Assembly (NCBI GenBank): GCA_019915015.1
Contig: JAHBBC010000032.1
Coordinates: 186,001 to 250,000, forward strand
Direction of reading: 5' to 3'
DNA: 64,000 nucleotides
From: Auriscalpium vulgare
Lineage: Eukaryota > Basidiomycota > Agaricomycetes > Russulales > Auriscalpiaceae
The translations under genes were made by a program, and so were the position numbers. This document shows positions 8,870 to 64,000 of the stretch, in pieces. Positions within the stretch are counted from its first letter, which is position 1; the number at the start of each line of letters is the position of its first letter. Under the pieces are notes generated by a model. It saw only the letters and a program-made list of their open reading frames with translations, had not been told where the DNA came from and ran no database searches.

Positions 8870-9490
8870 GCTTGAAGGGTTCTTAGGAGCTGTCCATATT
8901 GCTGGTGCGTACTCGGTACTCCATGGCCGGGCACGCATGATTGACGACCCGCAACAGTCACATCACCGTCATTGAATGGTCAGTCCGCTCGGATCTAAGA
9001 CTTTTGCTATCTGGGGCTCTCTTGTCCTTTCTCTGCGCGGCACTTGACCCCGTCTCGCCAATTTTGGGTCTTCTTCAGCTGCTGCCGAGACGCCATCCAT
9101 GCAAACCGGTGCACGCCATCAGAACATCTCCGGCACGGCACTCACTGTTAGATCTGTTGTCTGTCGCGGGTATTGTCTTTCGAACTGGTCATCAATGGCC
9201 CTACCTGGCGTCTTCTAGACTCCAGACAGCCTTCTCGTTGTCGCGCCAGGGAGCCGAGAACACGGATCGCGGAAGAGACAATAGTGCCAACGACGCCTCT
9301 GATGCGGTCTCCTCGCTTCGACACGAAATTCAGCTTCTGCGAGCCTGCGAGCCGTCGTCTGGTCCTGTTTTGACGGCATCGTCCCTTATATCATTATTGT
9401 ACACTCATGGGTGTGACAACAATACAACTATTACACGGGCGCAGGCACAGCGAGAACAAGGACCCCGAACCTGACCACGAGGAGACAACG
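8870..9490. repeat. R block, copy 1
   Basis: First of five related blocks (others near 16320, 26590, 56860 and 63250). Shared landmarks are a CTATCTGGGGCTCT-like start, TCTCTGCGCGGCACT, a GGGTCTTCTTCAGCTGCTGC segment and a GAACAAGGACCCCGAAC end. No reading frame is kept among copies. Each visible complete copy lies about 0.4-0.7 kb past the 3' end of an X gene, so it marks the left border of the repeating unit. Confidence 0.75.
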
Positions 9491-10029
9491 TGCGCTAGAC
9501 GCTGGGGAAAAGAAAAGCCTTGCGACATCAGTAGCTGAAGATCCAGCGCAGCTTCTTCCCAGCGACGATGGTGTCAGTGCCCTCAGTCAAAGAGCTAGGG
9601 TTATGGGCTGGGCTTCATAGACTTGCATGAGGTGCACGCGAATCATTTGTAAGGGAGCGGCACGCTGGTTTCTCGGAAATCGTTCGAGTACTCATATTTC
9701 GGGCGCCACCTGGTATGCTTAGAGTGGATATCGCTAGATTTACAGGCATACAAGCCGGTACCGTACACCGTAGAAAACAAGATGAAAGCAAGGATAATGA
9801 AAACTTAAAATAGAAGGGAAAGACCGAGCAAATGAAAACGATACAGTAGTTAGTGTCTGTCCTGAGATCACTTTAGAATTTAAAGAACACAAGAGAATGA
9901 GAAAGATGTAGTAGTGTCTGCCCTGAGACAATACGAGAGGATGACGACGTACGCGACTCGGAGCTGCCTGCGTCATTGCGTGTCTTTGGGCTAACTTCTC
10001 GCGATAGCGATACCTGCAGGAGACAGCAC

Positions 10030-12121
10030 TTACCTGAGCCCTATGTCAGAACAAATCACGATACTAATCGCTGTCGTGACCTGAGAGTTTAGACGAGGAG
10101 CAGCCGAGCGTAATAATAGGTAGCAAGCGAGACAGCAGGGCTGTGATGCATCGGTCAGAGAAATGACAAGAAGCATATGAATGACGCGATACACACAGCG
10201 TCTGCGCACAGGTGGGATGGACTCTGCCACTGTCTTCATCTCCTTGTCTTTCATGTCTTCTTTGACCTCCCCGTCTTCTTTGATTTCCCTGTCATCCTCC
10301 TTCTCCGCTTCGGTTGGCGCGTACTGGCTAGGAGCGTCATTCATCGTCGATTCGAGGCTCAAGAGCGTCATTGGTGGGGTTTGGAGGCCTAGCATCGATG
10401 TTGACGTTGGGTGTGACCGAGCGGTGGTGGACTCCGACGCATCGGGCATTGATGGCGCCTGCACGACCATCTGCTCGTTCAACGAAGCCAGCGATGACCC
10501 GCTGGGGTTGTCCAGGCCACGGCCAGGCGTGACTTCTGTGTGCGCAGAAGCGATCAGGAGACTGCTTGTACCACTGGGGAGATCGAAGCACATACCAGAT
10601 ATCGAAGTGGCCGTGCTTGGTGGTGGGGTTATATATGCAGCATCACCGTTGCCGGGGTGAGACACAACCCAGTTCTCGACCCTCCATCGCACGGCAGCCT
10701 GTGCGCGCCGCTGCTGCTCAACACGATCGCGGCTGCGCTGCTCCGATTCAGCCCGTATCCTGGAGCATGCAGATGAGGCTGACGTCTTGGTAACGCAGAA
10801 GAAGTACCACCAACCTTTCAAGGGCTTTGATCTCTTCGAAGAATTGACGTGCGTCACAGAATTCCTTGACGGATGAAAGGTCCGTCGAGCAGTCGACCAC
10901 GGGCATGAAGCGTTCTTTCGGATCATCGAGGCCAAAAAAACTTTCCGCCAACCTCGCAGTAACGTCGCTGAACATCGTCCCGAATTCGTCGCGTACATTG
11001 GCCTGTTTAGCTTGCAGCTCGGTCCGTAGGTGCTCCTCGTCTGGGAGTGGGATTTCCATATCATCGTCGTCGGCACATACAGAGCCAACAAAGTCGGGGG
11101 AGGAGCTGGGTGGAGTGTCCTGCGTATCATCTGGTGATGTGAAATCTGTGGCATCGGACATGCCCGATACGCTGTCAGATACGCCGTCGGGGCCGAGATG
11201 TGTTGGAGGACAAGGTGCAGGAGACTGCATCTTCATGGCGACATCACTAGATGCGGCGTCGGCGAAGTTGGGATGGGTAGGATGCTCTGCCTCGTAGTGC
11301 ACGGACGTGTCGATCCTGCGTATAGTATCGCAATCCTTGGAATTGTCCAGGGTATCCTCCGACAAAGAGATATCTGAGGCACCGGAGTCATCAGAGCTGT
11401 TATTGGGGGAGTACGACATGGTCGATATGTCGTCAGATACGATGTCGGGGCCGAACCGTGTGGGAAAACAAGGTGCGAAAGACTGCATCTTCGCAGCGAC
11501 ATCACTGCTTGGGGCGTCGGCTTGGGTAGTATGACCTGCTTTGTACTGCGCCAACATGCCCAACCTGCGTGAGACATCACGATTCTTGGACTCGGCCAGA
11601 TGGTTTTCGTCTGAATAAGATATTAAAGGGCAGTTGGTATAGTCGTCTTCTCGCGTGCGGATGCGGAGATCCACGCCGGCCATTGTATGGTGGTAGAGGT
11701 TCTCCCATGGCAACGGGGGCGAAGGCCAGAGCCCAGCACGACCAGTGGGGTGGGTTGCAGGCGCTATGGGCACGCACATGGTCTCGTCGACACTGCGAGA
11801 GGGAACTGGCGTGGGAAGGCCTTGGCTGAGAAGCGAGCAGGAGCATCTGTAGTATTTGCGAAAGGGAGATGCTATATCCACAAGCTAATGCCCATCAGAA
11901 ACTGCAGCGGTTGTACGCCAGCATAACGAGCTTACCTCGGCGACGATGCCGACATACTTCTTTGTCACCAGCGCACGAGCCTGCGTTTCGGCGACAGGGT
12001 CGTTCAAGGCCTTGAGAGTGGCGACAGGGTCCAAGGTAAAGACGATATATGCACCGTGTGCAGGTGTGAAGGGTTTCTTGAGCAAACGTCCTTCGGAGCG
12101 GGGATCTGTGTGGGCACTCAT
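10030..12121 (-). CDS. X1: member 1 of the X family, unknown function
   Basis: Exon 1 (12121-11936) is 62 codons, starting MSAHTDPRSEGRLLKK. Exon 2 (11884-10815) is about 357 codons, and exon 3 starts at 10759 and stays open to 10030, possibly with more introns near the end. Conserved points in the family are an FTP.HGAYIVFTLDPVAT segment, LPWENLYHHTM, a LRIRTRE..Y.NCPL segment, an acidic Ser/Asp-rich middle, FCDARQFFEEIKALER, and a basic coiled-coil-like RIRAESEQRSRDR. A Cys-rich CCLACYLLLR patch lies near the end. I see no catalytic motif, signal peptide or homeodomain. Function unknown. It is head to head with Y1, 580 bp apart, and its frame is open through all three exons. Confidence 0.65.
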
Positions 12122-12701
12122 GGTACCGTGTGGGTGGCAACAAGTTAAGATAGTAATCGCATGAGGCGCGTTGATGAACAGTGAGCGGCCGATGCCGGTC
12201 GGGGTTGAAATAAAGAATGCTCCAGGACCCCGGAGCGCCATCGACCAGCATTTCAATTGTCAGGTCCGTCACGGTGACTGCCGGGCTAAGCAGTACTTAC
12301 TTACTGTTGTAATCCGGGGCTGTCACCGTCAAGATTTATCTAGGCGCTCTGCGGAACAAGGCTGCTTGTTGTTCTCTACCCGAAGATACGCACTGAAGAC
12401 GCACTCTATGCGGCACAACACAATTACACACCGTTGCCTGCCAGTGGTCTCTTGGCGCATACAAATGATGTCGCCGCTGCTTCCTGGTGCATCGCCCGTT
12501 GCAAGCAAGACAGTTCTTTCTATTATTTCTGTTCCTAAGCCATTGTTCTCAACCTCAAGACGTGAATCTCTGCAAGGATATAACAGTGTGACGCGTAGAG
12601 CTTCCATAACAGACCTGTATCCAAGTCGTCCTCATTTCCTGGCGCTGGGTCGCCTCTACCACCGAACACCATTCGTACTACCTTCCCTCACTGTTAATAT
12701 C
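12122..12701. promoter_or_regulatory. Bidirectional promoter of the X1/Y1 pair
   Basis: 580 bp between divergent starts. Conserved with units 3 and 4: a GGTGGCAACAAGTTAAGAT block just upstream of the X start (its 5' untranslated side) and a TTATCTAGGCGC block at 12336-12347 (29792-29803 and 59876-59887 in the other units). A further stretch around GAAGATACGCA is shared with unit 3. The conservation of non-coding blocks across diverged copies suggests they are functional. Confidence 0.55.
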
Positions 12702-15430
12702 ATGAACAACGCCCCTACAATACTCCCCACTCCCGGCATATGCGAGCCAGGAAATGCATTCGCATCCGAAGACACAATCCACACTTCGGCCAGGCTGGCC
12801 CTGCACTACCCGATTCGCGTTGACAAGACTTCTACCCCCAAGAAGCAGGACAAGATCAAGCGCAAGGACAGGCCTTTCCTCATTATTTCCCAAGATTTTG
12901 ACCATGACGACACAGTCGTTAACAAAATCTGCGGGATGGCGACATATGGGTCTGCGTTGAATCTGTACACATCCGCTCGTGTTTTCCAGCACTTCAGTGT
13001 ACCCTTGTACCCAAGAGCCCCATCACAACCTGGAGGATTCGTCCTTCGCAGCACGATTGAAGAATGGGACAAAGGCGCAGGTTGGGTCTTCGCGCGCCCA
13101 TATGTAGCATTTAAACCTTTGAAGCACCAGTGGAGGGAGCACGGCGTACCTCTGCAGGTAGCGCACGCTGCAAGGCATCAATTCCGAACAGTCTGCCAAC
13201 AGAAGATGGAGGAATGGGAGACGTTGATGGAAACCCAACAGGCCACGTTGCGCCGGAACTATCACGTACGTTCAGATTTCACCTCTAAAACATCCTGCCT
13301 CTTGATGACACTGACATCGCAGACTGCCATGGCCCTATTATATGAGGTCTGTGCATCGGAATGTCATACCAACCAGCAATCTGATATCGCGTCATCATCC
13401 TCAACAGGATTCTACCCCGGTGAATTCGTCGCCTACCTATAATGCGGCCACCTCAGACGCTGCAAGTCAACCACCAGTGAGTTGATATCACACTGACCTG
13501 ATGACATGGCACCGACAGATAACCTTCCTACATCGGAATTACAGGGACCACACGGTGCTGGAAACCCGTCCAGCTCGGTGATATCTGGCAACTCGGAGGG
13601 CCTAATGTCAAGTACAAGTAACCGCCTGTGGGGCGCTGGCCCCAGCTCGGTGACGTCTAGCAAGTCAGAGGGCCCAATAGCAGGTACAAAAAGCCGCCCA
13701 CCAAGCTTGATAGGCGGTTTATCATATGTCAGTCAATTGCCTTGACGCGCCATCAGTTGCTTGACCGAGGTTTCATAGACAACGCAGAAGAGCAACAAGA
13801 GAAAGGAAAAGGAGCGATGTCCTCCCCGACATCCGAGACGGCCGCCTATGGGACTACTGCTTCGACACCTGCATCTCATCCAGATCAGGGCGCAGGGCTC
13901 CAGCCGACAAGTCCGAGCGCTCCGCGAGACACCAACGAGCTTTCCATTTCACCTGCCGGATCTGCCGCCATAGAGGCTCGCCTGCCCGAGGGGAAGTTGC
14001 CGAGCCTGGCGTACACATCACCGAAGAGCCGGAGGAGACCGGTCAGTGCCAGTTGAATTGTGACATGCACGTGCCTAATCTCGAGAGCACAGATGAACGC
14101 AATCCTGCACGAACGGGGTCAAAGGACAGCGAAAACACGAACTCGTCTGTCATTCGGCATACCCCACCGTTACACTTCGGGTCCGCTACACAATCCGACA
14201 TTCCAGTTGAGACCCTTGTTGAGAAAGGGGAACGCGAGGGCAGCATCTCCGTCAAGGAGTTTTTGTGGAAAATGGTTCCGAAGAAGTTTCGGCGTTCGTC
14301 GAGATGAGTAGATTCTGGAGTGCCGCTGATTGTACTCAGACTCATAGGTTGGGATATATTTGTTCGTACTTATACCGTTCCGTCTGCTCGTATCACTCCT
14401 TGTCCATACGTACGGCGAAAGGCCATGCACGCATCGACCGCGGCTTTCCAAACGGACATGAGCCACTACCGATGTCGCCGTCCCTCATCACTAGTGATGT
14501 CTGGCAAGTCGGATGGCCGAAAAGGAAGGACAAGCATTCGCCCGTGGGTGCCCCCCAGCTCGGTGAGGTCTGGAAAGACAAGGATTCGTCCGCCGGGCGC
14601 TGGTCCCAGCTCGGTGAGGTCTGGAAAGTCGGATAGCCGAAAGGGTAGTACAAGCGTTCGCCCGCGGGGCGCCGGCCCCAGCTCGGTGACGTCTGGCAAG
14701 TCAGAGGGCCTAATAGCAAGTACAAGAAGTCGCCCACCAACCTTGATAGGGAGGATATCACTTGTCAGTCGGTCGTCTTGACGCGCCATCAATTGCTTGA
14801 CTGAGGTTTCATAGACAACACAGAAGAGCACCAAAAGAAAGAAAACGACCCATAAAGAGAGGTGTTTTCCCCGACATCCGAGAATTTCGAGGAGGAAACC
14901 ACGGCAATCACCTGGGACCGGCTGCAAGACGGTAAGATGAGCGGGACATTCAGTTTACAACACCCCGTGCGTGTGAATCTCAAACATATCAGCTTTATGA
15001 CTCACATACCTCTAGAGTTCAACGACATCAATCGCCCAACTCCAAGCAACTGCTCTTCCGGCTCTGGAAGGGATAGGTCAGTTTGTTGGTGCAATACGCC
15101 ACCGCTGATGCTCACCGTGTTTCCAAGCCAATGCAATGACAGCACTACCCCACACAACGACCCCCGTTTCGAATCCAGAAGAGCTTTCGAGTGCGGTCGA
15201 AGTGACCCCTGCAGTCACGGCGTTGACGTCATCCCCGAATTGAGGTCGTGGTTGTAGAGGAGTGTCCGGTAGCAACGTCGCCTCAACCTGATGCAGGTAG
15301 CACCGCTCAAGCCCAGCTCTTCAAGCCTGCCCAGGTGCATGCTAATGATGTCATCGACCCGGAGCCCCAAAATGTGTCGAGGAAGAATGCGAGGAAGGAA
15401 AAGAAAGCCGCGCGCGGTGGCCATCAATAA
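12702..15430 (+). CDS. Y1: member 1 of the Y family, with two 3' cassettes
   Basis: Exon 1 (12702-13265) is 188 codons. It is followed by a micro-exon 13323-13346, exon 13408-13476 and minisatellite exon 13545-13727, all phase 0. The N-terminal domain has RPFLIIS, KICGMATYGSA, ARVFQHFSVPLYPRAPSQPGGF, EEW and LKHQWREHGVPLQV; it faintly recalls a lineage-expanded agaricomycete family without a name. Two alternative ends follow. Cassette 1 (about 13793-14307) matches the end of Y2 and closes with WKMVPKKFRRSS. Cassette 2 (14470-15430) resumes the minisatellite and matches the ends of Y3 and Y4, closing with ARKEKKAARGGHQ. Both ends are strongly basic. Near 15235 cassette 2 has a small deletion that breaks its last exon. 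Which end is used is unknown. Confidence 0.6.
13560..13710 (+). repeat. Coding minisatellite in Y1, first block
   Basis: About two copies of a unit of roughly 72 bp coding for a GAGPSSVTSGKSEG...STSxRP-type repeat of about 24 residues. The same unit recurs at 14490-14760, 31015-31202 and 54989-55110. Confidence 0.8.
14490..14760 (+). repeat. Coding minisatellite in Y1, second block
   Basis: Three to four partly degenerate copies of the 72-bp unit, closest to the Y3 copies at 31015-31202. The block restarts right after the Y2-like cassette, so the cassette appears inserted into a once continuous minisatellite. Confidence 0.75.
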
Positions 15431-16319: not shown

Positions 16320-16950
16320 TTGCTCTCTAAGGGATCTTAGGAGCTGGGCGATGTGCCTGTACTGTGGTGCGTGCTCGACGGCACGCATGATGGATGGTTG
16401 GCTGACGATTCGCAACAGTCACCTCACCACCACTGAACGCTGGGATGAGCGACTTTTGCTATCTGGGGCTCTTGTCCTTTCTCTGCGCGGCACTGGACCC
16501 TGTATCGCCAATTTTGGGTCTTCTTCAGCTGCTGCCGAGGCGCCATCCCATGTAAACCGGTGCAATCAGAATGCCTCCCGCACGGCGACCATCTGTTGTC
16601 TGTCGCGGTTCTTGTATCTCGATATGGTCAACAATGGTGCTGCCCGGCGTCTTCTAATCTAGACAGCCTTCTCATGTCGCGCCTGCTAGCCGAGAACAAG
16701 GTTCGCGGAAGAGACAATAGCACCAACGCCTCCTCTGATGCGGTCTCCTCGCTTCGACGCGGATGTCAGCTACTGGCTGCTGGGCTCTTCTGGATTTGCC
16801 TCGGGCCGGAGGTGCGTCGTTCGATAATCCTTGTGTCTGGTCGTCCTGTTCTGAAGGCAACGGCCCTTACCTCATCATCGTACACTCAGCGGTGTGATAA
16901 CAATACACGGGCGCAGGCACAACGAGAACAAGGACCCCGAACATGATCAC
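16320..16950. repeat. R block, copy 2
   Basis: Second R block, closest to copy 5 at the right edge. It is followed by about 270 bp (16950-17220) that also match the last 300 bp of the window. Confidence 0.7.
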
Positions 16951-17604
16951 GAAGAGACAATGGCGCAGTAGACGTTGCGAGTCATGGAACACAGCGCCCA
17001 CTAATTTCCCATGCGCCGGTTCTATGGTCGTTAGGCTACTCGGGACCTGGTGCGCCATACTTCGGCGACGAGTTCTGTTCTTTTGTCGTGCATGCACTGC
17101 AGTTGTGGATTGTATATAGATTGTGGACGATAAAAATATAAGAACACAATCATTCGTGTAGTCTCACCGCTGTAGCTCGTTCGCGTAATTCCGAAACACA
17201 CGACTTGTGATGGTGCACACAAATACAATATGGAGTTGTTTTGCTCAGAGTTCCAACCTGATTATGCATTTGATCGTGATGCGTCGACGTCACAGGACAC
17301 GTACCCACACAAAATGTTCACACATGCAATGCTTGGGAGGAAAGATAGGGCACGCAACACTCATATTACAACATGGAGAGCAGAGAAAAAGCTACAGGTC
17401 CAATAAATTGTATAGTAAGAATCGCAGGTATTCAGACAGCAGGATATGTACATGGCAAAGAAAGAAAAGCCCGACGCACGGAATTATGGCTTCTCGGATG
17501 GCACTGTGGGCTCATGCGGTTGCCCTGTCCTCCGTCGACGGGTTGGCATGCGCCGGTATCGCCTTGTCCCTGAGCGCGACGGGCATAAGTTTGAAACCAA
17601 TCAA

Positions 17605-19087
17605 TCAAGGAATGAGCTCACACTTGATAGGGGACTCGGTCTGCGATGTGGATGCGCTATCGTTGATAGTGGTAGAGGCGCTTGCGTCCAGTTGCCGAGG
17701 GACATGCCGAGGGACACATCCCAGCGTTGCGATGGAGAACAATCGCGACACGAGTTCTATGGTCCAACCTGTGAGTCACACGCCCGACAGCTGAACAGAG
17801 GATAATAACGTACTACGCTTGGGATGCTTCGGTGACGGCGTCAGCACTACATCCGGCGTGGACTGATCGGGTTCCGTCGGCGGCACCGCATGGTTAGCCT
17901 CAGTGACAGCAACCTCTTCAAGAACAGCATCGACTGCTGCCGACGTAACGGAAGCCGACGTGACTGGAAGTAAAATGAGCGCAAGGATACATCGAAGGCA
18001 AAGGACATACCAGAGTCTGAGAAATCTAGTTCGTGGCTCAGACGGCGGCGCTCCTCTGACTCGATCATAATCCTATCTATTTGTAAGGCAAAAGCGTTGA
18101 AAATAACGACACATCTTGCTTACCGTCTAATCTCTCGGGCCTCGCGAAGAAAAGAATCGGCAGAAGAGATCTCCAGATCGGAGGTGATGTCCGTGTTGAA
18201 TGTTGCCAAAGGAGCAAACCGATTGTAGGGGCTGTCGTACCCAAATAAATGCTGAGCAAATGGATCACTTTGAATATTGCCTGGAAGAGACCGGGTCTTG
18301 GCCGAACCGCCATCGGAGACAGAGGTGTCACTGTCTGCATTGTTGGAACCGAGCAATCCGGTGGTAGCCGAATTCGATGAGTCGGAGGAGCCTCCCGATA
18401 TGCCAGATGAGCTGTATGCTCTTGACACGAGATATGGGGAGAGGCACGGTTTACCCTGCCTCTCCGGAACGCGCTTCAGGCGAGTCTGAGCTCTGGGATG
18501 CTCTGGATGGGCTGCGAAATAGTTATTGATAGCTTTGCGTCGACGCGAGCCGTCCATCTCGGACCTAAAGAGAACCTCGTCCACGTCATCCGATGTCAGC
18601 ATTGAGCATCCGGTGTAGTCGCCAGGTTGTGTCCGCAGGCGGATACGGATATCTGGTACCGTGTGATGATAGAGATTGGACCAAGGAAGTGGGGGCTGCG
18701 GAGTGACGGACATCCGATCGTCTGGGTGCTTGGATGGACCGATTCCCAGACACATGTCTCGTCGAGGCCGTCAGAAGGATCGGTTGACACCGGGAGCCCT
18801 CGACTGACAATATGGCAGTCGCAGAGGTGGTAAGCGCGTTCCGGAATTGGAAGATCAACATTCTGCATAAAATTGTGAGGATTATGTCCCAAAGATCGCT
18901 GCCTGCTTACAGAAGAAACAAAACCGATGTATACGCTCGTGACGATGGCCTTAGCCTCTTGCGTGGCGATGGGATCCCGCAGGTGCTGCACAGTTGCTTC
19001 GGGATCGAGGGTAATCGCCAAGTATACCCCGGTCGCAGGAGTGAGAGGTTTATAGAGAATGCGGTCTTGGACGGGAGAATCGGCCAT
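17605..19087 (-). CDS. X2: diverged member of the X family
   Basis: Exon 1 is 19087-18911 (59 codons, starting MADSPVQDRILYKP), followed by exon 2 from 18862 downward. It aligns to X1 through LPIPERAYHLCDC..SRGLP, SDGLDET, then LPWSNLYHHTV and RIRLRTQPGDYTGC. Near 18753-18758 one base is missing where X1 reads ACC ATG, which breaks the frame; the matching frame resumes at once. The 3' part appears to use further exons near 18050-18066, 17790-17960 and 17605-17770, with a Pro/Thr-rich tail; these are tentative. It lacks the CCLACYLLLR patch of the others. It is far more diverged from X1 than X3 is. The break could be sequencing error. Confidence 0.5.
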
Positions 19088-19689
19088 GGTGGTGGGGCGA
19101 AAGAGAGTTAGATGGGCCGTTCGGAGCATGCAGCCACACTGCAGGTACTAGTGTCGGAGCTTCAAACGGAATCCGACCTGCGGGCGCTAGTGTGGCACAT
19201 CTCAGTGACTTCAGACTCGGATGAGTCGACGATAATCTTGCTGTGCTCAGATGCTAAGGCGGCGAATTTTGGTGTGAGATGTATCACAGCTGTGCTTGTA
19301 TGACATTCATTATCATCCTACCCTAGTTTTTCGCAGCGCCATCAAACTCGAAGTCACTAGTAAGTATGCCCGAATCCCGATAAGCCGCCAACTGTTGTTC
19401 AGACTTGCCCAGACAGGCAGCTGTTGTTAACCTTCAATAGCCTCCTTTGTACTCCTTGTTTCATGTCGCTGCTCCCCTCCCTTTGTGTCCTCCACTCAAG
19501 CCGGCAGCTGGTTGATGCATCAGGTATGCAACCTTCGTCAATCGTGCCGGCAACTGTTCTCGTTTCCATCAGCCCAAGGAACAACAACACAGCCCCAGGA
19601 AGTGCATCTCTGACTTATAGGATAACTGGATGCATCGGATACAGTACGCCTCAATACGTTCCCCCTCAATTTCTCCTTACATACGACTT
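19088..19689. promoter_or_regulatory. Bidirectional promoter of the X2/Y2 pair
   Basis: 602 bp between divergent starts. The blocks shared by units 1, 3 and 4 are not recognisable here, so this pair may be controlled differently. Confidence 0.4.
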
Positions 19690-21586
19690 ATGCTCTCCCA
19701 TCAGACCACCTCCGACTACTATGTGCCACCGGCTGGCGAACGAAGTCGAGGCAATATTTTTCAAGGCTACGAGTCGGTTCATAGCCCTGCCAAGAAACGC
19801 CTCGGTATAGTCGAGCCAAGCCCATACCCGCTCCGCAAAGAACCACGCCCCTGCCTCATCATGAAGGTCTACAGTCCGGAGACAGACGATTATGTTGAAC
19901 CTACTGTGATTGAAGGTTGTCTCATGACATCTTTCACAAACCGACAGGGTTTGAGGACAACGCGCACCCAACTGGCGAGGGTTTTCCAAGACTTCATACT
20001 CCCTGTCCGTGGAAACTCAGAAACCACTCAAGACGAATTTCAACTCGATACGACAGTCACATGGAACAACGACAAGACGTGGCTTCTCGGGATCAAGTTT
20101 GAGTTAGAGGAAGACCGAGAGCTAGGGAATCAATACACGATTCCGAAGGGCGGACAGCCAGCGCAAGTCCCATGGGGCCATCTCAAAAAAGTCAGGGCGG
20201 AATGCGATGCTCGAAACTCTCAATGGGAGAAAGCAATCATGGACGATCCAACATTTCTAGACAGAATGCGAGACGACTACGAGGTGAGCCAATCCTTCCA
20301 TTAACCATAATCGAGCCATGCAATACTTAATTCTCCTCCCGTCCGGCGGCGGCCAACTCCCAAGAGTAAACAAGACCTGGTTACAAGTCCCTATTGGTCG
20401 GTAAGAGCGCTGCAGCTGGATATATGCCCTGAAATTGATGATGGCAATGTCTGCGGAAGCAGGCCTCTGCACTCCGCAGTAATCCCCCTTCTCAGGTGCG
20501 GGAAGATCAGAATGTCATTTGACGCGTTTGAGTACTGAACACCAACTCTCAGAGAAACTCCATAAAACAATCACTTTCATCCTCTACTCCAGCCGTCAAC
20601 TTTGCCGTACGACTCTCTCGTTCGAACTTGTAAAACTTGAAAAGGCTGATCAACTTGATTTCAGACAAGCCAGCCTTCAATGCCGACAGGGTGGATGCTC
20701 GCGTCTGATCAGGTGAGTCAATGACCCTTTGGACTAGATGGCGGGCTGAGCTCGGACCTCCGCTCATGAACGTCAAGGCTGGACAACAGGGGCTGTCTAC
20801 CCCATCAAGGCTGTCACCGACTGCCCCTGTGATCCGTCCACGGGTTAGTGTACTCACCGAAATTCAAATATCTATGTCAGACTCACCGTGACCTGCTGTC
20901 TGTAGCTCTCGGACGCAGCAACCTCCTCCTACCCTTCGTCGTCATCGTCAGTATCTGGATCCAGCCCTGGTCAGGAATCTTTTTCGTCTCCTGGATCGCT
21001 GTCTCCTTTGGCCGTGGAGTTTAAGCCGCGGGTGCGTACTCATCAGAAGACTCGGGAATTTGTGACACTCACTTATCAAACACACGTCCAGGCCGCCGCC
21101 TACGGGACTCTTACTTCGGCCCCGTCAACGCCTGCATCTCATCAAGATCAGGACGCCGCACGCCAACTGCTCTGGTCGACAAATGCAAGGACGGACGCTC
21201 CGCGACACCTCGACGAGCGTTCTATTTCACCTGCCGGATCTGCCGCCATAGAGGCTCGCCAAGCCGAGGAGAAAGTCGCCGAGCCTAGCGTACAAATCAC
21301 AGAGGAGCCTGTGGAGATCGGTTAGTGGCAATTCAATTGTGACATTCACATGTCTGATCTTGAGAGCATAGATGAACGCAACCCTGCACGAACGGGGTCA
21401 AAGGATAGAGATAACACGAACTCGTCTGCCAGTCGGCATACCCCGCGGTTACACTTCGGGTCCGCTACACAATCCGGCATTCCAGTTGAGACCCGTGTTG
21501 AGAAAGGGGAACGCAAGGGCAGCATCTCCGTTGGGGAGATTTTGTGGAAAATGGTTCCGAAGAAGTTTCGGCGTTCCTCGAAATAA
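19690..21586 (+). CDS. Y2: diverged member of the Y family
   Basis: Exon 1 (19690-20283) is 198 codons with RPCLIMKVYSPETDDYV, CLMTSF, ARVFQDFILPVRG and GHLKKVRAECDAR, each at the place of a Y1 landmark. A donor GTGAGCC follows at 20284. Middle exons between about 20430 and 21050 were not resolved. The end is clear: 21083-21325 (Ser/Thr/Pro-rich, SISPAGSAAIEAR) and 21372-21586 (DERNPARTGSKDRDN... WKMVPKKFRRSSK), nearly the same as cassette 1 of Y1. No minisatellite was seen. A nuclear or nucleic-acid role is suggested only by the basic end. Confidence 0.55.
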
Positions 21587-21589
21587 GTA

Positions 21590-23700
21590 GATTCATAGGT
21601 TGTGATATGATTGTGCGTACTTATACCGTTACGTCTGCTCGTATCACTCCTTGTCCATAAGTACGGCGGGAGGCCATGTACGCATCGACCCGCGGCTTTC
21701 CAAAGGGACGTGAGCCACTACCGAAGTCACCTTCCTGCGCCCCTCATCACTGGCACCGCGTCCTGCGCTCATAAATTGATGGAGCTCGCCAGCCGCCATA
21801 TACCCCTCGCCCGTGCTTCTTGAGGCAACAATGCGCTGTGCGTCGGTCTCCGTGGACAGCGTGGCATAATGTTCGCCTCACCCACCGACGGCATCGGCAC
21901 GATCCTTGGATGAAGAGTGGCGTGGAGTGTGGTCGGCAGAGGAGCTTTCGATCAGCAGAATTGGTGCAGTGGGCATCAGTGGAGGACAGCTGGATCGCTG
22001 CACATCACAGGTATGAGGCGCGTCCGGCTCGACGGGCACACAGCATGGCGTACGCGCATTCGCGAGCTTCGCTGCGCTTTGAGCGCTACCTCGTGGAATG
22101 CACAGCGCGCCTCAGCGAGGGCGATGTCGATGCCCAGCAGTGTGCAGCGTGTCACCCTGGGGAGGACCGAGCGTGGTGCGCGTGGAGAACGATGTGCGTG
22201 CTCAGTGTGGGTAGCATAGGTCCGGGCGGTGTGAGGCAGAGTGGTGCGGTCATCTTGCTGGATACGGTGGATTGAGGAGGCGATAGTGCATACGATGCGG
22301 GGAGGTGGTGGCCCAGCGTTGTCTGAACAATGAAGGGGTCGAGGTGTGTGAGAGACGCAACCTGGGAGAGCAGACTTTTTGAGGGCCCACAGAGATCGTT
22401 TAGATTACTTCGTTATGGGATAGGTGAGATGTGAATCGCGTGCTCGGTCTGGACGATGCGCACGATGAGGACGAAAGCTGTTAAGGGGAACACAGCGATC
22501 TGAACACGAGAATGAAGATATCAGCTCTCCGGTTGGCGGTAGAGTGCGTCGAGGCTGACCTATGTTTCTTGCTACGGGGGTTTCCCCCGTCTCTATGTCA
22601 TTGGTCCTTTGATGAAACCTTGGGGTTCTTTCATCCAGCAACTTTTTACGGCGGTGGTTTGCAATGGGAGTTGGATGGCTGCACTGCAGCCTGGAGGGCG
22701 ATCGCGAGCGAGTTTGGAGGAGTAAATTTGTGGGATAAAGAACAAGCCCTTTGGCTGGCAGCAGTGAAGCGTGAGCGTGGCATTGCCATATAATGTGGCT
22801 GCGCCTGAATGTGGTGCAGAAGAGCACGGCGATAAAGGTGGCCAAGGCAATCATGACGAAGACCACGTCGATATCTGGGACGCCAACACAGCATCCGCGC
22901 TCGTGCTAACAGAGCAAGCAGCGCGAGATTTCGCAAGACTGATATATCGTAGCCCGTGCGTCGTCACTCTCAGAACCATCGGTGAGAGGGCCACTCCATA
23001 TCAGCGGTCCACGAGCTGCGACTGAACACGGGGCGCGCCCTTCGCAATGTCAACTAGCTTCTTTGCGTGCTGCGTCGTGGAGTACAAGCTATAGGGACGC
23101 GTGTCAGCACATCGCACAACAAGAATTGCATGACAGGGCCGACCGGAAATTTATCGCCTCTAACAGCATTGGGAGCTCTTCTCTTCGTCGTCCATCGCGC
23201 TAAACTCTCGAAAAGAACTTGCATGCTTGAGACAAGATGTTTCGCAGGCTGCTGTCAGAGAACGCGGGGCCTGGTTATATCCTAGGATTGGACGCAATTG
23301 GGAGAGGAACGCACGGGAGGTCAAACAGGTGCTCTGGCAGTCATGACCTGCCTACAGGGTGGCCACAATACAACGAGACTCCCTGCGTATTGGTCCTTGC
23401 AGTGCTTGCGATCAGTAGCGATACATAGCGAACATGCCCTGTAGTGGGTTGGCAGAGGTAGAGGTTGATGGCAGCTGAAGCGGGAGTCGGGACTCCGGGA
23501 GTGGGCACAAGCCTTAACCCTAGTGCGGGTTTACTGCCAGCCCTGCCTCTGGAGTCTGGAACTGGAAGTCGTCCAGTGTCCACGCTCACTGCCGCGAGTT
23601 AGGCTATCGATTTCTTCCCGCGCCCTGTCTTCACCTCTTCAGTTCTGCCCTTCTCACTCCCACGTCAAGTCGTAGGATGCGCGCATACGACTCTTCAGGT
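21590..23700. other. Gene-poor stretch after unit 2
   Basis: 21590-21750 still matches the cassette-1 flank of unit 1 (14310-14480). The rest has no frame I trust. On the minus strand, 22405-22936 and 23341-23589 contain hydrophobic runs (VFVMIALATFIAVLFCTTF) that could be remains of a membrane-protein gene, but no exon chain holds. Confidence 0.35.
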
Positions 23701-23799
23701 TGCCTCCATCGTGCGCAAGAAGACAGTCAGCGCGTCAAGAACTCGATTTCGCCTGCGTTTGGCACCGGAAACTTCTCGGCCAGTGTCCGAGCTGTTTCA

Positions 23800-24930
23800 T
23801 GAGCAGATCGAGTACGCTGGGAGTGACCATCGCGCTGGCTAGATCGTGCTTCGTGCTTCGAGTCCTCAGCCAGCCCATCCTCAAGCTCAGCTTTCTCGGG
23901 TCCGCAGCCATCGCGCCAATTGCGCTGACTCTTCCCGTGAAGAACCCTACCGAAGCTGTGGTGCAGGCTGTCGCTGCGCGCGACCAAACTGCGCGGATTC
24001 ATTCTCAAAGAAGCACGGCGTCGCGAAGGCGTATACCACTGTATACCAATGTGCGTGATACGTACGGTTCATACGAAATAGTGAATGACAGCGCGCGCAG
24101 AGTTGCTGGACGACCCAGACATCGACGCCGTCTACAATCCAGTGCGTTTCTCTGTTACGCTTCCCTCCAGCTCAGGCGCTGACGAGGTTGTTAGCTCCCA
24201 AATGAACCTGCACTCATAATGGACTATGAAGGCACTCGCCACAGGCAAGCACGTACTGCCGAGAAGCTTAGCGCGGACACCGCCGACGAGACCCGGAGCA
24301 TGTTCGACTATGCCAAGAAGAAAGGCCTCGTCCTGTTGGAGGCTTCTACCGGTTTGTATCCCTGCCACCACCCTCGTTCTTTGCGCCGTGCTGACTCACG
24401 GGGCGGCGGTGAAGTTTCCACCCCGCAGCGCCGCGCACGAAGGAATTGTCAATCGCGGCGAGCTTGGCACTTTCAAGCAATAAGACACGAAAATTGATCT
24501 CGTGGATATGGGCTGTGAGTCCCTCGCCTCGTTACTGCTACCCACATCAGCTCAGTGCTATGATAGGCTACTCGCTATCCGTCGCTCGCTATCTTTTGCC
24601 CTTTTGACTGCGAGCGCGGATACTTCGTCCGCATTCGCGAGGGCATCACCGCCGCGCTCCTTTTTCCCCAGCCCCGTCCACGGCATCCCTCGGCGATCCG
24701 GCGCCGTCCACTGGTACAGTGTCGGCGCACACCCCCACCTCATGAGCTTCGGGTTTGTCGTACGTGTCGTTTGCACGCGGGGCGAGGTCACGCTGTTAAG
24801 CTCGCAGACACGTCCAGTAGTATGTATGTAACACTCGTCCGCGCGGATAACTGTAGTACTGTCCACGCCCGTCTCGATGCAGTACATATGTGCGACCATG
24901 CTCACGCTATGCGCGCGCTGGTGCGCAAGC
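23800..24930 (+). pseudogene. Decayed Gfo/Idh/MocA-type oxidoreductase
   Basis: Scattered fragments in shifting frames follow the order of a Gfo/Idh/MocA dehydrogenase such as fungal dihydrodiol or D-xylose dehydrogenase-like proteins. They are KNPTEAVVQAVAARDQ then FSKKHGVAKAYTTV (about 23936-24050), LDDPDIDAVYNP (about 24106-24142), WTMKALATGKHVL and SADTADETRSMFDYAKKKGLVLLEA (about 24220-24346), and MDMGC (24502). The first Rossmann GxGxxG part is unclear, and stops and shifts separate the pieces. The true family reads NAD(P)-linked sugar or diol oxidation; this copy cannot be active. Confidence 0.65.
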
Positions 24931-25271
24931 TGCGACGCAACACGATGCCTTCATGGGGAATGCGGGAGCACGTCGACGAAAGTGCTGGCGAGACCCAACG
25001 GGCGTAAGGGAGGACTACGTACAGGACAGGAGGGAAGAAACCCGTACATGCGAGTGGGGAGTGAGAGAGGACAACGTCTCCATGCCACGACCTGGCAGGG
25101 ATATTTGTGCAAGCGCGGGCCTTGGACGCCGGGTCAGCCACGGGTGCGATCGACTCTGCAGTCGAACGCGCCTGTAGCAAGCTGACTGGTACGGAGTCAA
25201 CGATAAAAGCCTTGAACTGCCGCGGTGTCGACAAAATTGCTGAAAAAACTGACTTCAGTGAGCTGGCTACA
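24931..25271. other. Junction between decayed gene and duplicated segment
   Basis: No gene seen. Similarity to the membrane-protein gene begins abruptly at about 25272 (GGCATCCCCGACGAG), which marks the left breakpoint of the copied segment. Confidence 0.4.
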
Positions 25272-26589: not shown

Positions 26590-27215
26590 TTCGCTTGAAG
26601 GGACGTTACTAAGGAGCTGCACAATGTGCTTGTATTGATGCGTTCTCCAGGGCAACGCATGATGGACAGTCAGCTGAGGACCCGCAACAGTCACGTCACC
26701 GTCATTGAATGGTCGTTTCCACTCTTTTGCTTTCTGGGGCTTTCTTGTCTTTTCTCTGCGCGGCACTAGACCCTGTCTCGCCGGTTTTGGGTCTCCTTCA
26801 GCTACTTCGAAGACGCTACCCATGTAAATCGGTGCAATCAAAATACTTCCCGCACGGCAATCACTATCGGATCTGTTGTTTGTCGGGGTATTGTTTTTCT
26901 AGCTAATCGCTGCCCGGCGTCTTCTACTCCAGACAGCCTTCTGGCGTTGCGCCTACGAGCCGAGAACAAAATCGCGGAAGAGACAATAGGGCCAACCCCT
27001 TCCTCTGATGGGGTCTCCTCGCTTCGACACGGAGGGCGGCTTCTGCTGGCCCCAGGGCTCTGCTATATTGGCTTCGGAGCTCGCAAACTGGCAGCATGCC
27101 GTCGCCTCGCTCGTTCCGCAGGCATCGTCCCTTACCTCGTTATTGTACGTGACAATAATACAACCATTGCACGGGCGCAGGCACAGCGAGAACAAGGACC
27201 CCGAACCTGACCACC
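26590..27215. repeat. R block, copy 3
   Basis: Third R block, closest to copy 1. It lies about 380 bp past the last open codon of X3. Confidence 0.7.
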
Positions 27216-56859: not shown

Positions 56860-57390
56860 CTCGTTGAATGGTCAGTCCGCTCGGATGAGAGACATTTGCT
56901 ATCTGGGGCTCTCTTGTCCTTTCTCTGCGCGGCACTTGACCCCGTGTCGCCAATTTTGGGTCTTCTTCAGCTGCTGCCGAGACGCCATCCATGTAAACCG
57001 ATGCAATATCAGAAGATCTCCGGCACGGCAATCACTACTGTCAGATCTGTTCTTTGTCGCGGGTATTGTCTTTCCACCTGGTCATCGATGGTGCTTCCTG
57101 GCGAGCCTTCTCGTTGTCGCGCCAGCGAGCCGAGAACGAGGATCGCGGAAGAGGCAATACTTAGCGCCAACGCCTCGCGGTCTCCTCGCTTTGACAAGGT
57201 ATTCAGCTCCTGCTAGCCCTGCGCTCTGCTGGGTTGGTGGACTAGCAGCGTGCCCTCGTCTGGTCCCGTTCTGAAGGCATCGTCCCTTACCTCATCATTG
57301 TACCCTCAGTGGTTGCGACAATAAAACAACTATTACACAGGCGCAGGCACAAGGACCCCGAACCTGACCACGAGGAGACAACGTGCGTTG
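56860..57390. repeat. R block, copy 4
   Basis: Fourth R block, starting near GAATGGTCAGTCCGCTCGGAT, which copy 1 also has. It is about 460 bp from the end of X4. Confidence 0.7.
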
Positions 57391-57849: not shown

Positions 57850-59736
57850 GTGCGTGTGCACTACGATACTAATCGCTATCGTGACCTGCACGTTTAGGCG
57901 AGGAACAACCGAGCGTAACAATAGACAGCAGGCGAGACAGCAAGGCTATGACATATCAGTGAGAACAATGAATCGAAGCAGACTAAGGACAAAATACGCA
58001 CAGCGTCTGCGCACAGGTGCGGTGGGCTCCGAACTTGTCTTTTCCGCCTCGGGTGCTTCGTGCTGGCGGAGCGCATCCTTCATCGTCGACCCGAAGCTCC
58101 GAAGAGTCATTTGTGGAGACTGGAGGGCTGGCATAGACGTTGAGGTTGGGATTCGTGGTCGAGCGGTGGTGGACTCGGATACACTGGGCATTTGCACGAC
58201 TCCCTTCTCTATTGAGCTCTGCCTCGAAAGTTCAGGGCTGTCCAAATCACAAGGCGTAACTTCTAAAGGTGTGAAGCAGTAAGGGACAATGCGGAAATCG
58301 ACGATGTGAGCGAAGCACACACCGGTTGTTGAGGTGACCGCGCTTGGTCGTTGTGACACGCATGGGGATTCTACGATGGCTATCATAAACAATGCGCGTC
58401 AGCTATTAGAGATATCACCCAGACACAAAATCTCACGATTCCCGGGGCAACCCAAGTCGTCAGCAGAGAATTGGGCGGTCGTGGCCGCAGCTGGAATTTG
58501 TTCTATGTACTCTAGTCGGTCTTGGCGGCGCTTCTGTTTCTTGTCTTCTGCTTGGTCCCGGATACGCTTCTCCGCCTCCTCCCGTATTCTGAGGGACTAA
58601 AATTAGAGATGCGATTCTGCTAGAAGACAATCACGTACTTGTCGAGCACCTCCATCTCTTCGAAGAATTGACGTGCGTCACAGAATTCCTCTACTGTGGA
58701 GAGGTCCGTCGAGAAATTGACGACTGGCGTGAAGCGGTCTTCCGGGTCGTCGTGCCCAAAGAAATTCTCTGCCATTTTTGTGGCGACATCACCGAACACC
58801 TTCCGTACCTCGTAGGACACGTTGGCCTTTGCGGCGTCTTGCTCCGCTATTAGGTCTCGCTCTTCTCGGAGTTGAAAATCCAGACCGTCGTCCGTTGGTT
58901 TAAAAGCTGCTACGAAGCAGTCAATGACGTCTGGAGACTGAGGAAGCGTGTCCAGTGTGTCACTCGACAATGTGCTGTTGGTGGTATCGAGTTCATCGAC
59001 GCTGTCCGTTCGGAGAACCAACGCACTCGACCCATTGCTATCGGTATCCAGAGATGACACTGCTTCGGCATCCTTTAGGGAAGGTGCGGTTGACCGTCGG
59101 TCGAGGGGTGTATCCAGGCATGGAGCGCAGCTCGAGGCAGGAGTTGGATGATCGGCCGTGTGTCGCGCCTGCAAGGCCATCATACGCCTAACATCGCGGT
59201 TTGTGTAATGAGACAAACGATGTTCATCCGAAATCGATAGCAACGGGCAGTTGTAGTAATCGCCTTCTTGTGTGCGGATGCGGAGATCGAGGTTGAGCAT
59301 GGAATGATGATAAAGGTTATCCCAAGGCAGAGGAGGTGAGGGACTGATTCCCATGCGACCACTGGGGTGCGGGGCTGTCGTTATGGGCACGCACATCGCC
59401 TCGTCGATACCTTCCGAAGGAGACGGAGTAGGAAGCCCTTGGCTGAGAAGTGAACAGGTGCATGTGTGGTATTTGCGATGCGGAGATGCTAGGTCCACAC
59501 CCTGAAATATGTATCAGAAGATTTGACTGGGAATATGGCGGCGATACTACCTGGATGACGATACCAACGTACTTGCTTGTCCTCATTGCGCGCGCCTGTG
59601 CGTCGGCGACCGGGTCTTGTAAGTCCTCGAGAGTGGCGACCGGATCCAAAGTGAAGACTATGTATGCGCAAGCAGCAGGTGTGAAGTACTTTTGCAGCAT
59701 GCGTCCCTCGGAGCGAGGGTCTGGAAGGGAGCTCAT
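57850..59736 (-). CDS. X4: member 4 of the X family
   Basis: Exon 1 (59736-59551) is again 62 codons, starting MSSLPDPRSEGRMLQKYFTP. Exon 2 runs from 59511 to the donor at about 58637. Exon 3 enters at an acceptor near 58596 with KIRIREEAEK-like coding sequence (basic coiled coil), in the same phase as X1. Further exons carry Pro/Ser-rich sequence and the CCLACCLLLRSVVPRLN patch near 57900-57950; the exact 3' end is uncertain. LPWDNLYHHSM, LRIRTQEGDYYNCPLLS and FCDARQFFEEMEVLDK match the family landmarks. No frame break was seen in exons 1-3. If one copy of X is functional, X1 and X4 are the best candidates. Confidence 0.65.
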
Positions 59737-60260
59737 AGTGTCGTGTGGGTGGCAACAAGTCAAGATTGGAATCGCGGAATCGCTAGTTGGGCGTTGATGA
59801 ACACATTCGACGGAGGCCCCCGGTCGGGGTTTGAATTCTTTCCAGGACCCCGGGCGGCCGGCACAGCTACCAGACTTATCTAGACGCGCTCCATGAAAGA
59901 GGCTTGCCTTGTTGTTCTGTCCCCGCATACTGAACTATTAGGAGCAGTCGCGAAGATGCACTGTACGTGGCACAATAGAAGGACATCGCTTTCTTGTCAT
60001 TCAGATGTCTTGGAACATCTGGAACATGCCGTCAAAATCGCTGCATGGCAGCGCACTTCCCGACGCAAACAAAACTGGTCAACAATAGCCATTGTGCTCG
60101 ATTTCAAGGCCCTGCCAGTTGTGGGTGACGCCGGGCGCTGCTCTCGACATATAAAAATGGAACTTCTCAAAACCTTCCTCGGTCAAACAAACTTCCCATT
60201 TGCACGGCGCTGGAACGCCTCTTACTCACCTAGCACCACTCGCCTCGCACAATCGTTAAA
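59737..60260. promoter_or_regulatory. Bidirectional promoter of the X4/Y4 pair
   Basis: 524 bp. It holds GTGGGTGGCAACAAGTCAAG near the X start and TTATCTAGACGC at 59876-59887, as in units 1 and 3. Confidence 0.55.
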
Positions 60261-61880
60261 ATGGACTCCATCCCTTCCTTACTCCCCACTCCCGGCGACC
60301 ACGTCGCAGGAAACGCGTTTGCAATGCACGAGAGCATCCACACTCCTGCCAGGCTAGCCTTGTACTCTTCCGGTGAACGTCTGAGTCTTGCTTCCACCAA
60401 GGCCAGCCTCAACGATCAGGAACACGAACCTCGGCCAGCCCTCATCGTGTGGGAGGACTGGAAAAAAAAAGGTCTATCTTGCGTCACAAAATTTGCACGA
60501 TGGCGACATTCGGGTCCTCAATGAATCTGGATACAACCGCTCTCGTTTTCCAGCACTTCAGCGTACCTCTGTACCCCAGACCTGCATCACAGCAGGGAGG
60601 GTTCGTTCTACGCGCCACAGTCGAAGAATGGGAGAAAGGAAGCCCTGGCTGGATTTTTGCATACCCCTATCGAACACACAACGCTTTCCTTCACCAATGG
60701 ACCGAGTACAGGGTACCTCTCCAGGTGGAGGAGGCTGTTATGGATGCCTTTCTAGATGTCTGCCGGGAGAAGGGGGATGCATGGGATTTGCGGATGAAGA
60801 CGCACAAATATACAAAGCGCAAGGACTACCAGGTGGGTGTCAAGATTGTCTGCCTGTCTCACGCCTCTTGACGGGGCTGCTATCACAGGAATCTAAGAAA
60901 CCGAAGAACCGACAGGCCAATGCTTCCAACGCGGCTTCAGTTTCAAGTGCCGCTGCACCATTAAGTCAAAATGTGACCTCAGAAAGTTCGTCGTGTCCGG
61001 TGAGTTGATACCAACGTTTACCTGAGGCTTTCTCATGTCGTGACCGTAGATACTCGGCGCGGGCCATCCATCCAGCTCAGCACCAAATCTGATGAACGCA
61101 AGCAAGTCGAATGACATACACTCGAGCACGACCACTCTTCCCACGCGCCTTCCAGGAGTTTCAAGACCTTCTGTGAGTTGTTTTGTTGCGCCGCCGGCTT
61201 TCTGGACCTTAAGATACATAGCCGTTACAGGGACAGTCAGGCAACGACGTACGAGCGAGCGTGTCCCCAAAATTCCGGAGTTTTGCGGACGCATTAGTGG
61301 GGAGGACCCAGCAGCTGCCAGATGACGGTGATAAGAGCGCAGAAGTTGGTTCACCAGACCCCGTGAGTACTGATTCAAAACACTTCGTCTTCATTACTCA
61401 CATCGCAGCGCTTGTAGAGTCCACCAACCGTCCAACCTACAGCAACCGCAACTATTCTTGCAGAATCAGGAGGGATAGGTCAGCATATCATTCTAACGAA
61501 CCAATATCATCGCTCACCGGTATCTCAAAGCAAACATTGACGTAGCTACAGCGCTGTCACTAGCCCACCTGGTGCCTTCCGCTTCTCCTCCAGAAGAATT
61601 TCTGAGTGCGTCGGCTGTGCCCAGCGCTGAGGTAGCCCCTGCAGCAGCGGCATTGACGCTATCTCCGGCAGAGGAGGTTCGAGAGATGAATCGGGAGCCG
61701 ATCGCAGCAACCTCGCATCTACCTGATGCGGGGAGTGCTACTCAGGTTTTGCAGGTGCCAGCTGAAGGCGTCATGAACCCAGGACCACTGGAGACATTGT
61801 CGAGAAAGTTGAAGAGAAAGTGGGCCAAGCATATGCGTGGGCGTGGGCGCGGGCGCGGGCGCGGCGGGCCCTCATCATGA
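60261..61880 (+). CDS. Y4: member 4 of the Y family, one homopolymer frameshift
   Basis: The ATG at 60261 starts MDSIPSLLPTPGDHVAGNAF. A run of nine A at about 60462-60470 puts the next part (HKICTMATFGSS, ALVFQHFSVPLYPRPASQQGGF, LHQWTEYRVPLQV) into another frame, ending at the donor near 60832. Later exons start at about 60890 (ESKKPKNRQA), 61051 (ILGAGHPSSS) and 61230 (GQSGNDVRAS). The last exon ends in an RGRGRGRGRGGPSS tail at 61880. There is no minisatellite: the exon at 61051 has just one GAGHPSSS unit at the same place. The basic Arg/Gly end resembles RNA-binding RGG tails, by composition only. Confidence 0.6.
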
Positions 61881-63249
61881 TCCATAGGTCCTACTTGTTC
61901 GCGTATTTACCCCCGAGACGTAAACAAAATTGCTACAAACCCTTCCAGCCCTATAGTGAAACCGAGCACAAATCGAAGAACCGAAATTTGTACGCGTACC
62001 TTAAAATGAACAGCTCCCACAAGGCCCAGTGTAAGTCGACTCTGTGTGGCCTTCTTAGTCCAAACGAAAGCCCATGATGGTGTCCGATGCTTGTGGCGAG
62101 GAGAACATGACGTGTTGCTTATATGACCTAAGGTCTCGCGGGTAGAGCTTGAAGGAGAGGGCGAAATGCAACCTTGTGGCGCGCGCGTTTGGGCCTGCGC
62201 AAACATCGTAACAGGTTGTCAAGATGGGTCGCCTAGATGCATATACACAGCGCGGGTAAGCAGCAAACCGCGTACGCCAGAAGCTGCAGTATTGAAAGGC
62301 ACCGATTGTGCTGGGATCAGTATGTCAAGATCCGATGGTAGAAGAAGGACGGCTGAGGCACCTACGATAAGTACTGTACAATCGTCACGTAGGTTATGGG
62401 GCTTGCTGCAGAGCTGAGCTCATAGTCTCAATGTGGCGAAGGGCAAAAGGGATTTCGGAGGGCCAACGGCATGCGCAGAGACTCTTGAGAAACGCAGAGA
62501 CTCTTGAGAGAGTGAGAGCAACGAGGTAAAACGGCGGCGGCGGCCCGACATGATGCGGCAGAAATACTTCATTGGCAGAAAGTATGGAGGCAGTTGTAAG
62601 AGCCTTCGGTTTGACTGACACCACCAACTCACCTTGCAGACGACCGACGTTCCCTCCCGTTGCTTCTGCCCTGCGCATGCCTCGTTTTCACCTCTTTCTC
62701 CGCAAGTCTCGCCTCTGACAGCTAGGATTCTAGCTCCTGCATACCTGTGCCCTTCAGCCGTCAGTATAGTGTGTCCTCTGATCAAGAAATACGTCACGCA
62801 CCAAGGTAGACATCGTCGCAGCGAGGAACGCACAAGCGTCGGAGGGGTACTTCACCTGGCGGCGGCCATTGGCGGACCGCCGGGGCGTGGGATCAGCTGC
62901 CGCGGCGACCGAATATTTCCCGGCCCAACAGTAACACCATCACTGGCATGCACTTGAATCCAGTCATCACGCAGGCATATCTCGACATTTGCAGAGAGAA
63001 CGGGAGGATACGACTGTCCAGGTTACTCTCGATATGTGAGTCGTGGCTTGCATGTTGCAATAGTTTCACCTTGACTAGTCGCCGGCACACCTTTGCGGTA
63101 TGATCCTAAGCCTGCGAAGGTTGAATCTGTCTACTCTGCCTCAGGGAGACTACTTTGCGGGTCACTGTCGACGAAGCTCGACGTATCACACCGGTCGCCG
63201 CGCGCATAAGGCTCCACAAGGGGCGGATAAGGCTTGTGATTGTGGATTA
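61881..63249. repeat. Spacer after unit 4, including Z block copy 2
   Basis: 61881-62550 has no supported gene; a few hydrophobic minus-strand pieces (62420-62833) are of unclear meaning. 62550-63210 aligns to the Z block at 15700-16250. Confidence 0.45.
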
Positions 63250-64000
63250 TCCGCTGTAAGGGATCTTGGGAGCTGGGCGATGCGCCTGTATTCAAGTTGT
63301 GGTGCGTGCTCGACGGCACACATGATGGACGGTTGGCTGACGGTTCGCAACAGTCACGTCACCACCACTGAACGCTGGGATGAGAAAATTTTGCCATCTG
63401 GGGCTCTTGTCCTTTCTCTGCGCGGCACTGGACCCTGTCTCGCCAATTATGGGTCTTCTTCAGCTGCTGCCGAGGCACCATCCATGTAAACTGGTGCAAT
63501 CAGAATGCCTCCCGCACGGCGACCATCTGTTGTCTGCCGCGCGGTTCTTGTATCTTGATATGGTCACCAATAGTGTGGCTCGGCGTCTTCTAATCTAGAC
63601 AGCCTTCTCATGTCGCGCCTGCTAGCCGAGAACAAGGATCGCGGAAGAAACAATATGATACACAGGCGCAGGCACAGCCGAGAACTAGGACCTCAAACAT
63701 GAGCACGAGGAGACAATGATGCAGTACTAGACGCTGTGTCATGGAACGCAGCGCCCACTAATCCCCCATGTGCTGGTGGTCATTAGGCTACTCGGGACCT
63801 GGCGCGCCATATCTCGACGACGAGTTCTGTCCTTTTTCGTGCATGCACTGCAGTTAGATAGCATATAGATTGTGGACGATAAGAATGGAAGTCTTTCGTG
63901 TGGTCTCACCGCTGTAGCTCGTTCGCGTAATCAATCCTTGGTTCTGCGCGACACGACTCGCGTGGTGCACACAAATAAAAATATGGAGTGTTGTGTTTGC
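63250..64000. repeat. R block, copy 5, and unit-2-like flank at the right edge
   Basis: 63250-63700 is an R block closest to copy 2. 63700-64000 continues to match 16950-17240, the flank that leads into X2. The window ends before any X gene would begin. Confidence 0.65.

Follow-up and report, generated by a model that had tools for sequence, protein, structure and literature searches.

The described systems closest to the genes reported here are the two-gene het loci of ascomycetes, the spore-killer families wtf and Spok, the MazF/PemK/CcdB toxins and the HD1/HD2 mating-type pairs of mushrooms. HD1 and HD2 are divergent gene pairs on a shared promoter, with several pairs per locus, and in wtf and Spok a single gene encodes the poison as well as the antidote. 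Both of these spore-killer families are multicopy, fast-changing and fungal, and recombination diversifies wtf. PMC12881547 gives tight linkage as the more frequent arrangement where the genes of a system are unrelated, and PMC11138114 reports that balanced differences in Aspergillus het genes reach no further than several hundred bases beyond the coding sequence. For basidiomycetes, PMC8229728 calls somatic incompatibility poorly understood, with all current models coming from ascomycetes, and reports three to five incompatibility loci per species from limited genetics. Here we analysed a stretch of 64,000 bases of the cone-rotting mushroom Auriscalpium vulgare (C32:186001-250000, hereafter the window; genome of 51.63 Mb in 96 contigs), which carries a tandem array of head-to-head gene pairs, X on the minus and Y on the plus strand.

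Our leading, though tentative, reading is that X and Y form a cognate lock-and-key pair in a fast-diversifying conflict system, most likely one of non-self recognition in a Russulales lineage. At the sequence level it is based on the pairing itself, the joint divergence of X and Y, an excess of lone X copies, hyperdivergent alleles at a single place, the boundaries of cassettes and a ratio of nonsynonymous to synonymous divergence (dN/dS) below 1. Tight gene linkage is shared with two-gene het loci such as het-B Bh/Bp of Podospora anserina, and the divergent alleles in a similar haplotype that mark het loci have a putative parallel, on one contig pair, at X395362 and Y398846, but not at X384678/Y383598. 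X and Y differ from het loci in yielding no HET, lectin, PII, NLR or gasdermin domain in the Pfam scans run, and from the ascomycete ones in being basidiomycete genes, arrayed in tens of copies and putative in their incompatibility role; the three to five incompatibility loci per basidiomycete species are far fewer than the X/Y copies found here. Like wtf and Spok they are multicopy and fast-changing, but they comprise two divergent genes instead of the single gene of those families. Neither family was found in print by a literature search conducted mostly outside subscription journals and preprints.

The window holds four X/Y pairs, with ATG positions at 12121 and 12702 (X1, Y1), 19087 and 19690 (X2, Y2), 29630 and 30165 (X3, Y3), and 59736 and 60261 (X4, Y4), leaving ATG-to-ATG gaps of 580, 602, 534 and 524 bp. 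Exon 1 of X spans 62, 59, 62 and 62 codons in units 1-4, and units 1, 3 and 4 are linked by repeat families D1, D3, D4, D10, D12, D15 and D19 at 62-89% DNA identity. The original prediction had described these four pairs, their spacing, the exon 1 lengths and the accompanying R blocks, all of which were found again. It had also placed a fifth pair at 64.3-69 kb; X5 (exon 1, C32:251640-251774, minus strand) and Y5 (C32:252438-252932, plus strand) indeed lie past the window at the equivalent of 65.6-66.9 kb. The frame is broken in three of the eight window genes (X2, X3 and Y4), which could be real or due to assembly indels. The features are as follows, in window positions.

8913..9480, plus strand: R block 1, a unit-specific repeat downstream of X1 with no sign of function
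10064..12121, minus strand: X1 gene; exons 1-2 encode a putative MazF-like N-domain, followed by an acidic linker and a helix motif; the frame stays open to the end of exon 2
near 10067-10141, minus strand: conserved C-terminal end of X1
12122..12701: X1/Y1 shared promoter region, 580 bp, from the ATG positions
12702..14307, plus strand: Y1 gene; conserved N-domain at 12702-13265, conserved basic C-terminal end near 14176-14304; all exon joints but the first provisional
16403..16952, plus strand: R block 2
17716..19087, minus strand: X2 gene; exon 2 carries a frame break; 3' end provisional
19088..19689: X2/Y2 shared promoter region, 602 bp
19690..21586, plus strand: Y2 gene; N-domain at 19690-20301, C-terminal end near 21455-21583
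20543..25275, plus strand: segment from the Y2 C-terminal part onward, 97.4% identical to C32:253150-257904 (the segment after Y5)
26675..27214, plus strand: R block 3
27789..29630, minus strand: X3 gene; frame interrupted within the acidic linker
29631..30164: X3/Y3 shared promoter region, 534 bp
30165..31158, plus strand: Y3 gene; N-domain at 30165-30692, serine-rich repeat part to about 31158; 3' end provisional
56861..57373, plus strand: R block 4
57869..59736, minus strand: X4 gene; frame open through exon 2
59737..60260: X4/Y4 shared promoter region, 524 bp
60261..60829, plus strand: N-domain of Y4; a frame break falls between 60464 and 60482
63338..63708, plus strand: R block 5, shorter, preceding pair 5

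The array extends far beyond these units. A genome search with X1 gave 144 exon-level matches, which group by hand into at least about 80 loci on 15 contigs, a lower bound. Profile searches of C32:126001-410000 found 44 X loci (135-407 kb) and 18 Y loci, and all 18 Y loci lie head-to-head with an X, their domain starts 360-1072 bp apart. The Y N-domain is in one open frame and full or nearly full length at 12 of them, while the other six are broken or partial, some with X partners that are themselves fragments. On other contigs, one further Y on C12 faces an X, and by coordinates so do the Y matches on C13, on C28 and at C84:14547, the last across an insertion; another Y of C84 (671-1501) sits at the contig end. 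At C32:159968-160788 there is an X/X head-to-head pair, with 552 bp between domain starts, in place of an X/Y pair.

X loci without Y are common (26 of 44 on C32), and no stand-in family for Y was seen beside 26 of 31 unpaired X loci among the frames listed (up to four longest, in 2.4 kb upstream). Such an asymmetry, with many lone X and hardly any lone Y, favours a selfish poison-antidote pair (a spore killer or meiotic driver), in which Y would be the poison and X the antidote; loss of X while the Y product is left would kill cells or spores, so that copies multiply. We consider this explanation possible but doubtful. The asymmetry fits it best of all readings, since none of the C32 Y loci lacks an X, and the sole clear Y without an X within about 1.4 kb (C36:13000-13589, no X match up to C36:15000) is itself frame-broken. 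The degeneracy of many copies and the apparent resemblance of the X domain to a toxin-family fold also agree with it. Conversely, the N-domains of Y2 and Y3 are open despite broken X2 and X3, unless these are assembly errors or another X covers, and two weak Y matches (C36:58666 and C12:1328024), with no divergent X match nearby among the matches listed, may be intact orphan Y genes.

X and Y have diverged jointly. Their distance matrices correlate over 17 pairs (r = 0.774; 0 of 20,000 permutations), over the 14 pairs left after removal of three fragmentary Y (r = 0.807; 0 of 20,000), a set that includes one broken Y entered as concatenated pieces, and over a thinned set of 10 pairs (r = 0.42; 141 of 20,000). 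The nearest X agrees with the nearest Y in 12 of 17 pairs. Units 2 and 5 make up a second, distant subfamily, in which Y2 is about 26% identical to Y1, and X2 and X5, like Y2 and Y5, are mutually nearest among the 17 pairs compared. In a tree of 42 of the 50 X loci and five Artomyces proteins, which form one clade, paired and lone X are interspersed (the tree has 14 label changes, and shuffles give 14.0), as the poison-antidote explanation would have it. At least 12 label changes are forced by well-supported branches, their direction not being given by the tree, and a lone X often has a paired X as its close sister. The proposal that pairs kept together through duplication have cooperating products is upheld in part: the constant company of an X beside each C32 Y and the correlated distances indicate that X and Y products probably work together, while strict pairing does not hold for the lone X copies.

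Evidence on alleles comes from one contig pair, in which the examined parts of C84 follow C32:383.6-400 kb in inverted orientation, the two differing in length by about 3 kb 3' of X395362; we infer that the two are allelic. The spacer (C84:1801-4200) is 97-100% identical and the F-box gene has 98% protein identity and a synonymous divergence (dS) of 0.032, with a lower stretch at the start of that gene (86-93% over C84:6801-7551). Within a few hundred bases, DNA identity drops to 76-81% in the X domain and about 84-86% in Y at X395362 and Y398846, and to about 75% on the promoter side of Y. Synonymous divergence reaches 0.62-0.81 for X and 0.21-0.33 for Y, and dN/dS is below 1 for both. The adjoining pair X384678/Y383598 is 98-100% identical except for two 200-bp windows at about 94%, although close to the 5' end of its Y the C84 copy carries about 1.2 kb (C84:13269-14478) that C32 lacks. 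The hyperdivergence is local, because this adjoining pair is nearly identical. Gene conversion from another paralogue was considered as the source of the divergent C84 X: the closest X detected in the genome was its positional counterpart (72%), tied with the identical copy of that counterpart on C36, and no closer X was detected, an undetected source being possible.

These putative alleles bear on the idea of an ordinary lineage-specific tandem family with a non-conflict role, for example in stress or development, whose divergence would come from unequal crossing over and gene conversion alone. Lineage-specific gene arrays are common, dN/dS below 1 would suit such a family, and so would the nearly identical C84 and C32 versions of one pair and the several orthologues nearly identical between strains. 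However, allele dS of 0.6-0.8 beside a spacer of 97-100% identity is unexpected for it without balancing selection or an undetected import, and we regard it as unlikely. The same juxtaposition is not predicted by the poison-antidote explanation alone, and non-self recognition was ranked above that explanation because old alleles beside near-identical DNA mark balancing selection.

A comparable pattern was also seen within the array. Units 2 and 5 have in common a 4.4-kb downstream segment (96-100% by 400-bp window) that starts within the C-terminal part of Y, whereas their X genes differ by about 12-19%, their Y N-domains by 20-30% and their promoters by about 27-50%. Sharp-edged X cassettes occur elsewhere, as with the copy of X395362 on C36 and with X284441/X300877.

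A second A. vulgare strain offers a further comparison, based on predicted proteins. A single 53,961-base contig of that strain encodes seven of the database X proteins, and five of them match the copies at C32:135-165 kb at about 94-100% over most segments, with lower identities where ungapped matches run into introns. Of the other two, P0011 is only about 80-84% identical to its counterpart, and for P0016 the best exon matches across this genome stay at or below 82%. Two of the remaining six A. vulgare X proteins match array copies at 96-100% and four at 63-88% in comparisons with the examined copies. Differences between strains in the presence and in the alleles of X would fit these results.

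X is a multi-exon gene, with database models of 302 and 399-460 residues besides shorter partial ones. Its product has a conserved N-domain (exons 1-2), an acidic linker with an isoelectric point of 4.1-4.3 in six models, and a conserved motif with a long helix. Within one subfamily, five A. vulgare models end in a basic tail, which an Artomyces model lacks, and no hydrophobic stretch of membrane-spanning strength was found in six full-length X proteins. The N-domain, a putative beta-barrel, gives a fold match to the MazF/PemK/CcdB toxin fold without a sequence match: PF02452 (the MazF/PemK profile) matched nothing in this genome at an E threshold of 10, with control matches in 3 of 14 genomes, and Pfam scans of X and Y gave no PemK match. 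The N-domain of Y is conserved, and a basic C-terminal end was located in Y1, Y2 and the Y at C32:254 kb. In all 17 unbroken rows, by sequence position only, an Arg-Pro is followed 19-29 residues on by a Thr/Ser, a spacing that can be set, as sequence, beside MazF Arg25 and Thr48; in X neither residue was assigned. X/Y differ from MazF systems in being eukaryotic multi-exon genes with long extensions, and in having a partner that was not called MazE-like by any search run.

The absence of known domains claimed by the original prediction held up, with no useful match for X or Y in Pfam, NCBIfam or PADLOC, and a PDB sequence search gave no relevant match. Homology between X and Y themselves is unsupported (hhalign probability below 1%). 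Homologous pairs in relatives did not emerge from word-based protein searches: X homologues were confined to A. vulgare (13) and Artomyces pyxidatus (5) among the best 8,000 candidates scored in one run, and Y had no database homologue among 1,597 candidates. A reading as mating-type homeodomain genes is likewise unsupported. A transcription-factor pair forming heterodimers as HD1/HD2 do would share the divergent layout, the several diverged pairs in one locus, and the conserved helix and the basic ends of some members. No homeodomain or other DNA-binding domain was found in the X and Y rows scanned with Pfam (Y in part), however, and the copy number is far larger, with X copies on many contigs, so that this appears the least probable explanation, and a highly improbable one.

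In the non-self recognition reading, one bidirectional promoter would give two intracellular proteins: X, with a MazF/CcdB-like beta-barrel N-domain, acidic linker and conserved long helix, plus a basic tail in the subfamily with full-length models, and Y, with a second N-domain not recognisably related to that of X that carries the conserved Arg-Pro and Thr/Ser. A matched X would keep Y silent, and a mismatch upon strain fusion or in a hybrid would free an RNA-cleaving or growth-arresting activity. The target of recognition would be non-self nuclei or cytoplasm, as in somatic or heterokaryon incompatibility. New specificities would arise by copying of X or X/Y cassettes between array places and be kept by balancing selection. 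Physical interaction of X and Y, their activity and a recognition phenotype are predictions of this scheme. Recognition and poison-antidote can share one biochemistry. The earlier guess of an allorecognition or killer locus stands as a lead, given the allele hyperdivergence at one place, the cassette-like copying and the excess of X without Y. It is possible, though doubtful, that a mushroom lineage recognises non-self (or kills spores) by means of a eukaryotic two-protein system of MazF-like fold, multiplied to about 80 loci, with X as neutraliser and Y as RNA-cleaving partner, derived from a toxin-antitoxin-like pair.

An array of co-diverging pairs with old alleles beside near-identical spacer, at one place, provides concrete candidate genes for incompatibility. 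If the MazF-like fold is true, X would add to the cases in which eukaryotic conflict systems use a fold of bacterial toxins, and if recognition through such a fold is also true, X/Y would be a basidiomycete incompatibility system whose genes are defined at the molecular level.

Spread of the X/Y units as cargo of the region's transposons, that is, as a domesticated or mobile element family, would agree with the integrase/RNase H and Plavaka transposase domains inside the window and with X matches on 15 contigs. We consider it very unlikely: the R block was found in this window only, the window has no inverted repeats of at least 60 bases in the repeat search, and the X and Y rows scanned with Pfam hold no recombinase domain. 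The R block was also rejected as the long terminal repeat of a retrotransposon, with only five copies in the genome by a DNA search with R1, all of them in the window.

Rfam and tRNA scans gave no match in the window. Retroelement-like stretches at 32000-36500, assigned from reading frames only, and at 49875-52121, with RNase H, integrase and chromodomain matches in Pfam, lie inside the array and widen the gap between units 3 and 4. A frame at 41688-43397 encodes a Plavaka-type DNA transposase (Pfam E 5.6e-25), and a 51-base unit (family D5) is repeated in tandem within an open frame at 44888-45193. Two pairs of 300-base stretches are 99% identical (7489-7788 with 25272-25571, and 31197-31496 with 54685-54984), far more alike than the nearby X/Y genes, which suggests recent exchange between units. 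Between X copies, at about C32:267.1-267.8 kb on the upstream side of X266984, a reading frame may encode a lipoate-protein ligase, judging from its motif, and ordinary genes may thus be embedded in the X/Y array.

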